From positions 1 through 9,081 of the forward strand of contig LOCH01000020.1 in NCBI GenBank assembly GCA_001516765.1: a stretch of 9,081 nucleotides of DNA, given 5' to 3'. This DNA comes from Vulcanisaeta sp. MG_3 (lineage in GTDB: Archaea; Thermoproteota; Thermoprotei; Thermoproteales; Thermocladiaceae). The notes under the pieces were generated by a model. That model was not told the DNA's origin. It saw only the letters and a list, made by a program, of their open reading frames with translations, and did no database searches. Both the position numbers and the translations under genes were made by a program. Of the stretch, positions 1 to 3,026 are shown in pieces (position 1 is the first letter of the stretch; each line of letters begins with the position of its first letter).

Positions 1-215
1 TCCATCTCAGGTGTTATATCATACCTATCCAAAACCCTCAGGAGCGCATTGACCCTGTTCAGATAATCCTCAGAGGCGTAGAAGCTTGCCCAAGCGCTAT
101 ACAACGGGTTGTTCGTGCTGAGCACATACCTACCGATCTCGGAATAACCCCACATGCACGGTGCCCACGCGGCAAGGAACTGGGGTTGAGGAGCTGTTTC
201 GGTTTTCGTAATCAT
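1..215 (-). pseudogene. tenA: TenA-like protein, carboxy-terminal half (detached, partial)
   Basis: Reading the minus strand from an ATG at 215 gives MITKTETAPQPQ, then FLAAWAPCMWGYSEIG and a helical tail that continues past the window edge. This matches the second half of TenA/thiaminase II proteins, which act on thiamin breakdown products in pyrimidine salvage. The Cys in APCMW aligns with the catalytic Cys135 of Bacillus subtilis TenA (LLPCYW). The first half of the same protein lies at 425-793, with 236 extra bases between. An in-frame TGA lies just upstream of the ATG, so this half is not simply continuous with the other. The first residues (MITKTETA) are probably inserted sequence rather than native TenA. 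GC content (about 52%) is higher than in the other half (about 44%). Whether this piece is translated alone is unknown. Confidence 0.75.
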
Positions 216-427
216 TTGTGGTGTTTGTATTCATTGGTGTCTAAGACGTCAAAATTTATAAGGTAGTGGTTTCTGAATTAATCGGTTACCCCGAGTTTCC
301 AAGACCCGTAGGGCAATGAACCCCTGGCGACAGGTCGGGGAGCTACTGCGGTGAGGGGGCTCGGGGAGACCGTCGAGAAGGAGACGGTGAAGACAACAAG
401 TCTTTACCGTCTCCGGAGAGACGGTCA
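192..427. mobile_element. About 236-bp insertion splitting tenA
   Basis: Aligned to B. subtilis TenA from memory, the last N-half residue Gly (codon 428-430) and the first conserved C-half residue Gln (codon 180-182) should be separated by exactly three residues. The flanking sequence can supply those nine bases (for example codons 183-191), so the extra DNA looks like a clean 236-bp insertion with no loss of target. The exact edges can shift by 1-2 bases. The ends carry an 8-bp inverted repeat, GGGGTTGA at 182-189 and its complement at 425-432, which partly belongs to tenA. There is no transposase and no clear target duplication. The insert holds a plus-strand TATA box and a structured RNA. 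It could be a non-autonomous element or a captured RNA gene. Confidence 0.55.
255..261 (+). promoter_or_regulatory. TATA box of the structured RNA gene
   Basis: TTTATAA preceded by an A-rich BRE-like stretch (CAAAA). Its centre is 26 nt upstream of G284, which is also the first base of the closing helix of the predicted RNA. Promoter spacing and RNA folding therefore give the same 5' end independently. The motif is nearly symmetric, so weak transcription toward the tenA C-half on the minus strand is also possible. Confidence 0.6.
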
Positions 428-430
428 ACC
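284..430 (+). ncRNA. Structured RNA of unknown family (three-way junction, about 147 nt)
   Basis: The segment is about 61% GC against about 45% around it, typical of RNA genes in hyperthermophiles. The fold, read by eye: closing helix 284-287 with 427-430; arm 1 with 7 bp, 289-295 with 360-366, containing a GCGA tetraloop hairpin (323-326 with 331-334); arm 2 with 7 bp, 368-374 with 420-426; then five facing purine-purine mismatches (375-379 against 415-419); then a 15-bp stem, 380-394 with 400-414, with loop AACAA. Only one G-U wobble occurs in the long stem. I found no T-loop, RNase P P4 motif on this strand, SRP helix 8 or 5S signature, so the family is not recognised. Its 3' end coincides with the tenA junction. 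No U-tract follows. Confidence 0.6.
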
Positions 431-793
431 CCTCGATGCGTAGTAGTGTAAATGCCTCGTGTATGCGTAATTCACTAGGTTAAAGCCCGTGTTATTAACT
501 TCAGCATCCGTTATTGATAATGCATTGAATAATTTCTCATGAACCTCAGCGCCCCTCTCGATATTACCAAACAATGCGTTCAGCACGTCAAGGGCCTCAC
601 TTAGTGGTGCCCTACCTGCTGCCATTATTACTGCCCTCTGCATTTCCCTAACGTACTTCGTATCCTGAATTAGGTAGTACCTAAAGACGTCCTTTGGTAA
701 CGTTCCGTTTCTCAACCTCTCAACGAACTCATGCCTAACATACCTATCCCATAAATCACCTACCAATTCCCTAAGCCTATTGTGAGTGTCCAT
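425..793 (-). pseudogene. tenA: TenA-like protein, amino-terminal half (truncated)
   Basis: TenA/PqqC-like helical protein; full-length relatives are about 215-235 residues, this piece 122. It contains LWDRYVRHEFVERLRNGTL and FRYYLIQDTKYV, where the Asp matches Asp44 of B. subtilis TenA (pyrimidine binding), and ends at YTRHLHYYASRG followed by TGA. The catalytic Cys and the final Glu region are absent; the Cys is encoded in the detached half at 1-215. ATG 793 is preferred over an in-frame TTG at 838 because CTTAAAAG at 817-824 lies 26 nt upstream (leaderless mRNA) and because homologues start at this point. It follows the thg1-like gene in the same direction with its own promoter. It is either a pseudogene or one part of a split protein. 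Confidence 0.8.
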
Positions 794-816: not shown

Positions 817-824
817 CTTTTAAG
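817..824 (-). promoter_or_regulatory. TATA box of tenA
   Basis: CTTAAAAG on the minus strand, centred 26 nt upstream of ATG 793. It overlaps the stop codon of the upstream thg1-like gene (820-822). It indicates a leaderless tenA transcript that is still initiated even though the gene is interrupted. Confidence 0.45.
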
Positions 825-1554
825 TGTTGGTTCGGCAACTCATTAATTCATTAATGATGTAGATGGGGTTCTTCTCAACAATCCTCCTCCTAACATACCT
901 AACGGGCTTACCACTCCTCCTATCCACACCCTCAAGCTCAACCCTAACCCTAGCTAAGCACGTACCCAACGACTCCCAAGTCAGCCTAGGACCCCCGAGG
1001 ACCCTAATCACATCCGCAATATTGGGAGTACCGCCGAGCGGTATTAAGCCACTCCTCTGTGCCCTCTCAACGTGGTAGTTGTTGAAGCCAACCCTAACCC
1101 TATAAAGTAGGTACCTAGCCACATCGCCACAGCTATCCCTGAGCGGTATCGCCCTAGCATCGAAATAAAGAACCCTACCCAATGAGGTACTAACGAGAGC
1201 CGATGCGAGACCTGTCATTGAACTAATAAGTTTATATTCACGACCGTTGTAGGGAATGTAATTAAGCAGAAACAGGTTTATCTCATCACTAATCACAAGG
1301 GCGTAGTCACCGGCAAAGGTCCTCATCAATTCCTTGGCGGCGTTGATTAAGGCCCTATGAACACGCTCATCCCTAGGCCAGGTAAAGCCAGTGAGGGCTT
1401 TACCGAAACCAGCCCCATCAAGCCTAACAACGAGGGGTGGCTTAAGTATTGATGTAACAACCCTAGAATCAAAGTCCCCCTCCAACTCCACAGGGTTAAC
1501 GCTAAGGATAATATCTAACGCATTGCCTATGTTTTCGCCCCCATTGTACAGCAT
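820..1554 (-). CDS. thg1: Thg1-like 3'-5' polymerase (tRNAHis guanylyltransferase family)
   Basis: Thg1 and Thg1-like proteins add nucleotides to RNA 5' ends in the 3'-to-5' direction, at tRNAHis position -1 or in repair of tRNA 5' ends, using a palm domain related to ordinary polymerases. Visible motifs, numbered from ATG 1554 (244 aa): VVRLDGAGF with metal-ligand Asp46-Gly47, WPRDERVH (KPND-like region), and ISDE 88-91 with the second metal ligand, followed by SSMTGLASALVS and FDARAIPL. The HINN motif of eukaryotic Thg1 is not kept (GFNN here), which fits an archaeal Thg1-like protein. In-frame GTG codons at 1566 and 1590 are alternative starts; TATA-like ATAATTAATTA at 1591-1601 would allow a near-leaderless start at 1566. 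The substrate cannot be told from sequence; archaeal tRNAHis often already encodes G-1. Confidence 0.85.
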   Translation of the reverse strand: MLYNGGENIGNALDIILSVNPVELEGDFDSRVVTSILKPPLVVRLDGAGFGKALTGFTWPRDERVHRALINAAKELMRTFAGDYALVISDEINLFLLNYIPYNGREYKLISSMTGLASALVSTSLGRVLYFDARAIPLRDSCGDVARYLLYRVRVGFNNYHVERAQRSGLIPLGGTPNIADVIRVLGGPRLTWESLGTCLARVRVELEGVDRRSGKPVRYVRRRIVEKNPIYIINELMSCRTNT

Positions 1555-1636
1555 CACGTACCACACCCATGACCAATTAATGAAGCGCACTAATTAATTA
1601 TTGCCTCAACATACCCATGCGCCTTAGCACAGCGCA

Positions 1637-1644: not shown

Positions 1645-1665
1645 CACCAATGGCTCCATTGAATT

Positions 1666-1722
1666 AGGTGATGTGGAGGGGACGGACCCGATGGGTGAGG
1701 ACAGAAGCCCTGCGCGCTGAGT
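1666..1722 (+). ncRNA. Candidate C/D box methylation-guide sRNA
   Basis: A segment of about 57 nt with C box GTGATGT (1668-1674), C' box GTGAGGA (1695-1701) and D box CTGA (1717-1720). The D' box is poor; CGGA at 1683-1686 is the best candidate. C/D sRNAs bind L7Ae, Nop5 and fibrillarin and guide 2'-O-methylation at the target base paired five nucleotides upstream of the D or D' box. The putative D guide is the 15 nt at 1702-1716 (CAGAAGCCCTGCGCG); I could not assign its target. A TATA box sits at the right distance, and size and order match crenarchaeal sRNAs. The imperfect C and D' boxes limit confidence. Confidence 0.5.
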
Positions 1723-1821
1723 ATTCTCATTGTGCCGAGTCTAACCATTCCTGGTTTATTGGTATGGTCATGATTTAGGGTAAGGAATAATAAGTTCGTA
1801 AATTCACATTATACAAGCCCT

Positions 1822-2298
1822 ATGGAGCTGACAAAGCCCTGGAGTGACGTGAGGAAGTACCAGGAGGATAGGTTTAGGGAAGCCATGTATGAGGCGGAGC
1901 TTGCCGAGAGGTTCCTAAATAATGGTTTGCTCAGGAATGCCGCAGGTAAGGCGTATCAAGCCCTTAAGTCCTACGTTGCTGGTTTAGCTGTAGATTACAG
2001 GGACCTACTCTCCAGGTATTTTCCAGGTAAGAGGAGGATTTCGCAGTCTAAGGTTGTTGAGAGGGTTGATTGGATCATAGCTGTAATGCCGTCAAGCAGG
2101 TTGAGGGAGGTGGTCTCGATTATCGGTGATAAGGAGCTCAGGCTAGTTACCGAGATAGCCCTGAACCTACACCAATTTCAATACAATGGATTTGATAGGG
2201 ATTCAGAGGTGTCTCCCTATTCCAGGGAGGAATTCGTTAGGAGGGATATAGAGTTCATCGTTAATTTCATAAGGAGTAAGCTAGGACGTACCGCATGA
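1822..2298 (+). CDS. PaREP1 family protein
   Basis: A 158-residue helical protein. The stretch EAELAERFLNNGLLRNAAGKAYQA (about residues 23-46) is the hallmark of the PaREP1/PaREP8 families, which are expanded in Pyrobaculum, Caldivirga and Vulcanisaeta and resemble HEPN-type helical bundles. The role is unknown; a nucleic-acid or toxin-antitoxin function has been suggested for HEPN relatives, but no RX4-6H nuclease motif is evident here (LHQFQYNG holds the only His). It starts at ATG 1822 after a short leader; AATAATAAG at 1787-1795 is a possible TATA region. It is monocistronic and convergent with the phosphorylase gene, only 8 bp away. Confidence 0.75.
   Translation: MELTKPWSDVRKYQEDRFREAMYEAELAERFLNNGLLRNAAGKAYQALKSYVAGLAVDYRDLLSRYFPGKRRISQSKVVERVDWIIAVMPSSRLREVVSIIGDKELRLVTEIALNLHQFQYNGFDRDSEVSPYSREEFVRRDIEFIVNFIRSKLGRTA
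2114..2132. repeat. 19-bp near-palindromic repeat, copy 1
   Basis: TCTCGATTATCGGTGATAA inside the PaREP1 gene. It matches the sequence at 2354-2372 at 18 of 19 positions, in the same orientation, 240 bp apart. The inner part is an inverted repeat (TTATC-GGT-GATAA). Confidence 0.4.
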
Positions 2299-2306
2299 TT
2301 TCAGTC

Positions 2307-3026
2307 CTAAATATCTATTCTCGTTATTGTGCTGAGGACGGCCTTACCAACCCTCTCGATTATCGGCGATAATTCCTCCGCGGTTAGGAACCTGCCCTCC
2401 CTACCCTCGGTCAGGTTGTTGCTGACCACGAGTACGGCGCCCGTCCTCACACCCCTGAGCAGGCCTAGTAGGAACAGTATTGCGGTCTCCATCTCAACGC
2501 CCAGTATCCCCCTCGAACCCATCACATTCGCCAGGTCTTCCTCGGCGTAGAATGCATCGCTGCTATAAACTGGTCCGATCCAAACCCTAACCCCAGCATC
2601 CCTTAAGCCCTGTACTAACGCGGTTAGTGTGTCGTAGTTTGGTACGGCTGGGTAGTTGACGGCAGAACCGAGGTACTGCATGTATATACCTCCAGAGTTG
2701 TACGCTGACCCCGTTGGTACTATCACATCGCCAATGCCTATCTCCCTCCTTAATGCTCCCGCTGTGCCGAGCCTTATTATTAGCTTGGCGCCGAGCTTAA
2801 TCAATTCCTCAATAACAATGGCTGCCGATGGTGCACCAACACCATGCGTAGCTATAGTTACTCTAACGCCTCCATATGTGCCTGTGTACGTTACGAATCC
2901 CCTATTTTCATTAACAACCTTTACGTCAGTTAATAAGCCGGATAATTGCCTAGCCCTGGCAGGATCACCGACGATGACCACCCTCTCCGCTACATCACCC
3001 TCGCCAGCCCTTATGTGTATGGGCAT
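2307..3026 (-). CDS. Nucleoside phosphorylase, methylthioadenosine/purine type
   Basis: PNP/UDP family enzyme: phosphorolysis of nucleosides to base plus (methylthio)ribose-1-phosphate, in purine or methylthioadenosine salvage, cytosolic. From ATG 3026 (239 aa) the start MPIHIRAGEGDVAERV and the phosphate site VGDP match Sulfolobus MTA phosphorylase I. Further motifs are NENRGFVTYTG, IATHGVGAPSAAI, RLGTAGAL (phosphate/ribose site), SSDAFYAEE and VEMETA (ribose binding). The base-site segment reads VVSNNLTEG where I recall VVSDNLAKG in Sulfolobus, an Asp-to-Asn change that may shift base preference. ATG 3026 is chosen over GTG 3035 because AGGTGA lies five bases upstream and homologues start there. 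The stop of the DUF711 gene (3032-3034) lies just before it, so the two are co-transcribed. Uridine phosphorylase activity is an alternative. Confidence 0.88.
   Translation of the reverse strand: MPIHIRAGEGDVAERVVIVGDPARARQLSGLLTDVKVVNENRGFVTYTGTYGGVRVTIATHGVGAPSAAIVIEELIKLGAKLIIRLGTAGALRREIGIGDVIVPTGSAYNSGGIYMQYLGSAVNYPAVPNYDTLTALVQGLRDAGVRVWIGPVYSSDAFYAEEDLANVMGSRGILGVEMETAILFLLGLLRGVRTGAVLVVSNNLTEGREGRFLTAEELSPIIERVGKAVLSTITRIDI
2354..2372. repeat. 19-bp near-palindromic repeat, copy 2
   Basis: TCTCGATTATCGGCGATAA inside the phosphorylase gene, antisense to it. The core TTATCG-G-CGATAA is a perfect 6-bp inverted repeat with a one-base spacer. It pairs with copy 1 at 2114-2132. Confidence 0.4.

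Follow-up and report, generated by a model that had tools for sequence, protein, structure and literature searches.

The tenA gene at the start of contig LOCH01000020.1 of Vulcanisaeta sp. MG_3 is interrupted by a 239-bp insertion, which is one copy of a dispersed mobile element that encodes no protein. The whole stretch of 9,081 nt that was analysed is called the window, and the insertion occupies its positions 186-424. The element contains a structured RNA, and this is likely to be a guide-RNA gene for the TnpB/Cas12f-like nuclease whose gene is found in longer copies of the element. We assign this interpretation a probability of about 0.7. The best reading of the element is that it is non-autonomous and of the IS607 type, because its junctions have the geometry of IS607 insertions, yet no examined copy encodes a transposase; the guide function, the cleavage and the mobilization in trans are proposed as parts of this reading. 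The features in and around the insertion are as follows.

1..185, minus strand: C-terminal half of TenA, running off the contig (open reading frame (ORF) list and orthologue alignment)
182..185, plus strand: GGGG left of the insert, containing the shared crossover GG and presumed to act at the empty site as the target-adjacent motif (TAM) (GGGG also present at 8 of the 12 other empty sites)
186..424, no strand given: inserted element of 239 bp in tenA (empty sites in eight relatives)
191..226, plus strand: conserved left end, GAGCTGTTTCGGTTTTCGTAATCATTTGTGGTGTTT (profile match, E 1.4e-8; alignment)
255..262, plus strand: TATA-like box TTTATAAG, 27 nt before the start of the RNA model (motif position; putative promoter)
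282..424, plus strand: predicted structured RNA scaffold at the right end of the element (covariance-model match of 153.4 bits; covariation)
425..444, plus strand: presumed guide, the tenA flank into which the RNA would read (length assumed; from IS607/TnpB right-end RNAs and the geometry of empty sites)
425..793, minus strand: N-terminal half of TenA (ORF 425-838; PF03070, 2.9e-18)

The insertion in tenA and the target sites of the element

Both halves of TenA are present, in order, on the minus strand, and the C-terminal half (QPQFLAAW...) is encoded by positions 1-185. An earlier sequence-only reading had proposed that tenA was split by an insertion without loss of target bases, and comparison with relatives bore this out. 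The window was placed in the same genus as Vulcanisaeta souniana, and in all eight close tenA orthologues fetched from this genus (L063-L070) the gene is uninterrupted at the respective position. In one of them (G008) the match was in two pieces, but elsewhere in the gene. The relatives are thus not interrupted identically, which favours an insertion, and alignment with the eight empty sites showed that no target base was lost. The suspicion that the C-terminal half might be a different paralogue was dispelled, as it aligned with the same orthologues as the N-terminal half.

The empty sites also led to two corrections. The length of the insert, previously given as 236 bp, is 239 bp, and it lies between GGGG and one pyrimidine. 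The occupied site reads GGGG-[TTGAGGAGCTGTTTCGG ... GGAGAGACGG]-T-CAACCCC. The palindrome GGGGTTG-T-CAACCCC, with the insertion at its centre, had been put forward as the target; the joint in the eight relatives reads NNGG-C-CA(A/G)CC with no TTG between. The palindrome is therefore not the target, because TTG (186-188) belongs to the insert. Without the insert, the two flanks in the window form one common reading frame, except for a stop at the joint codon, which encodes Trp in the relatives; the stop results from a T at the joint instead of the relatives' C. The left end of the element provides an ATG in frame with the C-terminal half of TenA (window 3-215, minus strand; MITKTETAPQPQFLAAW...), so that a truncated fusion peptide could be read.

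An empty counterpart was available for 13 sites, i.e. tenA and the loci L112, L114, L013, L026, L006, L111, L008, L115, L122, L017, L107 and L023. The base after the joint was a pyrimidine in all 13, and likewise in 70 of 70 copies with a right end fitting the consensus (48 T, 22 C). GGGG immediately precedes the joint in 8 of the 12 sites other than tenA, and the four bases at this place in the remaining sites are GGAG (L008), GGTG (L111), GGGA (L023) and AGAA (L122). The tenA relatives have NNGG at this place, which is GGGG in two of the eight. Occupied sites follow the pattern GGGG-CTGTTTCGG...GAGAC-GG-Y, with GG at both ends of the insert; longer left ends (TTATCT..., TTGAG...) follow the GGGG in L013, L146 and the window. 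At four sites with a T in the empty counterpart (L008, L115, L107, L122), the left end has a C and the right end a T. The base after the right GG thus looks like host sequence, because the T of the empty site reappears there. For IS607 transposases, strand exchange at a GG dinucleotide has been proposed (PMC4058570), and judged from their sequences the junctions fit such a crossover better than insertion by IS110 or IS200/605 systems.

A structured RNA and its predicted TnpB-like partner in a dispersed family

The insert does not contain a transposase ORF; the proposal that it carries an RNA instead held up, as the RNA stretch is strongly folded (z -7.1; none of 200 shuffled sequences was as good). 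The search for further copies in related genomes, which had also been suggested, was positive. DNA searches revealed matches at three other places in the window's own draft genome, a metagenome-assembled genome (MAG) that is 55% complete and comprises 164 contigs, and DNA searches alone gave matches in 6 of 60 relatives as well. A covariance model of the right half of the element was then built from 24 copies and used to search 20 chosen genomes, 15 of which had a match. The numbers of matches were 51 in Caldivirga sp. MU80 (G021, 94% complete), 33 in Caldivirga RSNS23 (G023, 67% complete), 10 in G048 (98% complete), 6 in G054 and 4 in the window's own genome.

From the result tables 111 copies were extracted. 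Their left ends have GGGCWGTTTYGGTTTTCATGATTATTTGTGG in common, and a left-end profile matched 68 of the 111 when weak matches were counted. Two length classes were seen among the copies with a clear left end: 55 copies measured 187-257 bp and seven 1,275-1,342 bp; three further copies of 379, 415 and 1,469 bp fell outside both. In Caldivirga sp. MU80, 50 of the 51 matches were classified, and 32 were short, 7 had an adjacent ORF, and 11 were neither short with a left end nor ORF-bearing. For Caldivirga RSNS23 (30 of 33 classified), the respective numbers were 19, 2 and 9.

Seven pairs of copies occupy the same site, with right flanks that are 94–100% alike and RNAs that are 70–96% alike. One pair is L158 and L105, for which the likeness is 96% in the right flanks and 73% in the RNAs, and many G residues of the RNA strand are changed to A in L158. 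To judge from these sequences, this looks like one-sided decay of the element, and therefore the same-site pairs were not taken as proof of homing. The copies L002 and L016 share a site in two genera with 100% identical 200-bp flanks and different terminal hairpins, which indicates either a recent transfer or a binning error. In L011, an RNA copy (1462-1573, plus strand) lies just before a gene for a LAGLIDADG-domain protein (1661-2323, plus strand; PF14528, 5.1e-9), so that two mobile elements stand side by side.

The RNA structure was analyzed with 79 aligned matches from 80 sources, leaving out weak copies. Pairing was possible in 93.5% of the cells, compared to 38–48% when the partners were slid by 1–3 columns. 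Changes on both sides were found in 28 of 36 pairs, and in 270 cells versus a mean of 78 after shuffling; these figures lean towards structure, because the alignment was fitted to the model. In 58 of 98 copies, a TATA-like box begins 25–30 nt upstream of the point where the RNA model starts. Elsewhere it was found in 1–8 of the 98 copies per six-nucleotide window between -54 and -7, and in 22 in one window further upstream at -60. The search of the window against Rfam gave no hit at gathering level and, at E values up to 10, none on the insert; tRNA or tmRNA genes were not found in the window either. The RNA family is not in Rfam 15. While the RNA keeps a fixed shape at the right end, the adjoining flanks vary among the copies, and by analogy with TnpB systems it is likely to be a guide-RNA gene for the TnpB-like nuclease, with a guide taken from the flank.

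The long copies of about 1.3 kb contain a single additional ORF, which encodes a TnpB-like protein and is antisense to the RNA. The structure predicted for this partner protein has the WED-REC-RuvC fold of Cas12f/TnpB, and the D-E-D residues of RuvC are present in 79–80 of 80 members. Many TnpBs have a zinc ribbon (CxxC pairs) between the E and the last D of RuvC; it was found in none of the 80 members. The predicted fold and the motifs identify the protein as a TnpB relative without a zinc ribbon. The L003 protein had no significant match to Pfam, NCBIfam or PDB sequences, and its relation to TnpB was seen through other members and the fold. The linkage of the RNA to a protein of TnpB/Cas12f fold extends across distant archaea. 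Among loci found by the protein alone, the same RNA was situated divergently upstream in 41 of 55 tested; the 55, which include genomes that had been used for model building, were taken from 80 loci by leaving out most of the partial protein matches and of the loci starting at contig edges. In five loci (L042, L043, L045, L058, L139), a short conserved reading frame (MPEEYVFHARISK...) lies between the nuclease gene of a second group and the divergent RNA; it has 48 amino acids in L042, L043 and L058.

The proposed transposase in trans and alternative explanations

The sequence-only reading had suspected mobilization in trans by IS200/605 or IS110 systems. The element indeed looks as if it were mobilized in trans, but neither of the two named systems was supported by a survey for transposases. 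The DEDD transposase of IS110 (PF01548) was found in none of nine genomes (controls matched in 4 of 14), and thus the tested feature of the IS110/bridge RNA group was absent. The Y1 (HUH) transposase TnpA (PF01797) was present in 5 of 16 genomes searched, but absent from the window's MAG and the four genomes richest in copies (G021, G023, G048 and G054), so that the tested feature of IS200/IS605 was missing as well.

Serine recombinases were detected in seven of nine genomes, including G021, G048 and G054. The enzyme of G021 has an N-terminal helix-turn-helix/MerR domain, as in IS607 TnpA, and in G054 the gene next to the serine recombinase encodes a TnpB/Cas12f TNB domain. A serine TnpA within the element was not found, the TnpB-like ORF being the only one in long copies, and the RNA model had no match near the recombinase genes at eight loci. 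In G021, GGGCTGTTTCG, which corresponds to the common left end over its first 11 bases, occurs at -62 of the start of the IS607-type tnpA, and ends resembling the left end of the element are at -63 and -64 of tnpA in G048 and G018. When agreement with 12 bases of the left end was counted, the score was 11/12 in G021 (11 of 2000 shuffles as high) and 10/12 in G048 and G018 (88 and 106 of 2000, respectively); the other seven loci were ordinary.

A mechanism with four steps is proposed on the basis of the IS607-like geometry, the transposase survey and the left-end matches at tnpA. An IS607-type serine transposase acting in trans would move the element between GG dinucleotides. The RNA would be transcribed from its own promoter, and its 3′ end would read into the flank, which is taken as the guide; therefore, every copy would carry a guide against its own empty site. 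The long copies would supply, again in trans, the TnpB-like protein, which would cut that site next to a TAM of GGG(G), and an occupied copy would then serve as the repair template that restores the element.

Several observations weigh against this interpretation. The searches for serine recombinases were negative in the window's MAG (55% complete) and in Caldivirga RSNS23 (67% complete). The likeness of the left end at tnpA is confined to three of ten loci and is not significant (best nhmmer E 0.48). One of the 12 empty sites other than tenA has AGAA instead of GGNN, and two sites are doubtful on the left side, namely L017, whose flanks come from two separate contigs, and L023, which has a loose left-side alignment. 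Furthermore, both the side of the nuclease gene on which the RNA lies and its strand are opposite to those of known TnpB RNAs, and the partner protein lacks the zinc ribbon.

The strongest alternative, to which we nevertheless give rather low odds, is that the same element moves by another route. It could be mobilized by the TnpB-like protein, by a Y1 TnpA that the host once had, or by guided cleavage and copying through recombination alone. The lack of a transposase gene in every copy of the 1.3 kb unit and the two genomes without a visible serine recombinase would agree with this, and IS200/605 elements likewise insert 3′ of a fixed motif. However, GG at both ends suits serine recombination, Y1 TnpA is missing from G021 and G048, the first and third richest genomes in copies, and the IS607-type TnpA of G021 is next to an identical 11-base end.

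It is improbable that the RNA is instead just the transposon end in folded form, or serves to regulate the transposase, without being a guide, and that the TnpB-like protein is a passenger. Strong terminal hairpins are required at some transposon ends, such as those of IS200/605, but serine recombination does not need them. A scaffold of several covarying helices with a TATA-like box, linked to a TnpB/Cas12f-fold protein in distant archaea, also argues against a mere end structure. Even less probable is a partner protein acting as a guided repressor without nuclease activity. Such TnpB-derived repressors are known (TldR; PMC13418256), but the D-E-D residues are retained in nearly all members, and the RNA goes with a multi-copy mobile element rather than with one regulated gene. 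A chimeric contig or binning artefact, which the fragmented MAG and the identical flanks of the sister copy L002 and of L016 from another genus might suggest, is hardly credible, as both tenA halves align in order with the same orthologues and other copies have equally exact junctions.

Comparison with known systems and neighbouring genes

Among the closest known arrangements is that of IS607 elements with TnpB and a right-end RNA. The right-end RNA of ISXfa1 extends past the transposon boundary, and GGG was depleted in a TAM assay (PMC10711439). The element shares with such IS607 elements the GG dinucleotides at either end and in the target before insertion, a GGG-like motif at the presumed TAM position, and a right-end RNA that would extend into the flank. 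In contrast, it has no tnpA, its RNA gene is divergent from the nuclease gene and has its own TATA-like box, its nuclease is devoid of the CxxC ribbon, and most classified copies in two genomes are without a protein gene. The partner protein resembles the TnpB of ISDra2 (IS200/IS605) in its predicted fold over 289 residues and in the RuvC triad, but the copy-rich genomes lack Y1 TnpA and the nuclease gene does not have the RNA at its 3′ end. The best fold matches were Cas12f effectors, with 320 aligned residues comprising most of the chain; the context is, however, that of a mobile element, the identity is 10–14%, and the CxxC ribbon is missing (the comparison was by fold, not by CRISPR arrays). 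Like archaeal and bacterial miniature inverted-repeat transposable elements, the short copies are non-autonomous and would depend on factors in trans, whereas the part that is kept here is an RNA that shows covariation and has a promoter-like box.

As described in the literature at hand, TnpB systems derive their guide RNA from the 3′ side of the nuclease gene itself. The portion of the open-access literature covered, with most subscription papers outside it, contained no mention of this RNA or of PF27229 nor, as judged by titles and the opening of abstracts, of a guide RNA for TnpB whose gene diverges from that of the nuclease. With about even odds, it is the guide RNA itself that would have become mobile in these archaea. 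Its gene of about 235 bp, which has a promoter but encodes no protein, would acquire a new guide with each flank and would parasitize, in trans, an IS607-type transposase and a TnpB relative without zinc, and the divergent arrangement would represent a branch of RNA-guided elements that is old and widespread in archaea. If so, a guide RNA would be a separate mobile transcription unit that is several-fold more common than its nuclease gene in two genomes, and selfish guide RNAs as well as the conflict between RNA-only and nuclease-bearing copies would become directly testable. Archaea would also offer a compact nuclease without zinc, together with a novel type of RNA scaffold, proteins tagged PF27229 would gain a function, and an RNA family would be added beyond Rfam 15.

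Further along the window, the intergenic region 1667-1722 (plus strand) weakly matches sR28, a family of archaeal C/D-box sRNAs (24.2 bits, gathering score 39; E 0.0075). The neighbouring genes encode a Thg1-like tRNA-His guanylyltransferase (820-1590, minus strand; 4.4e-14) and a PaREP1/PaREP8 protein (1822-2298, plus strand; 4e-22).
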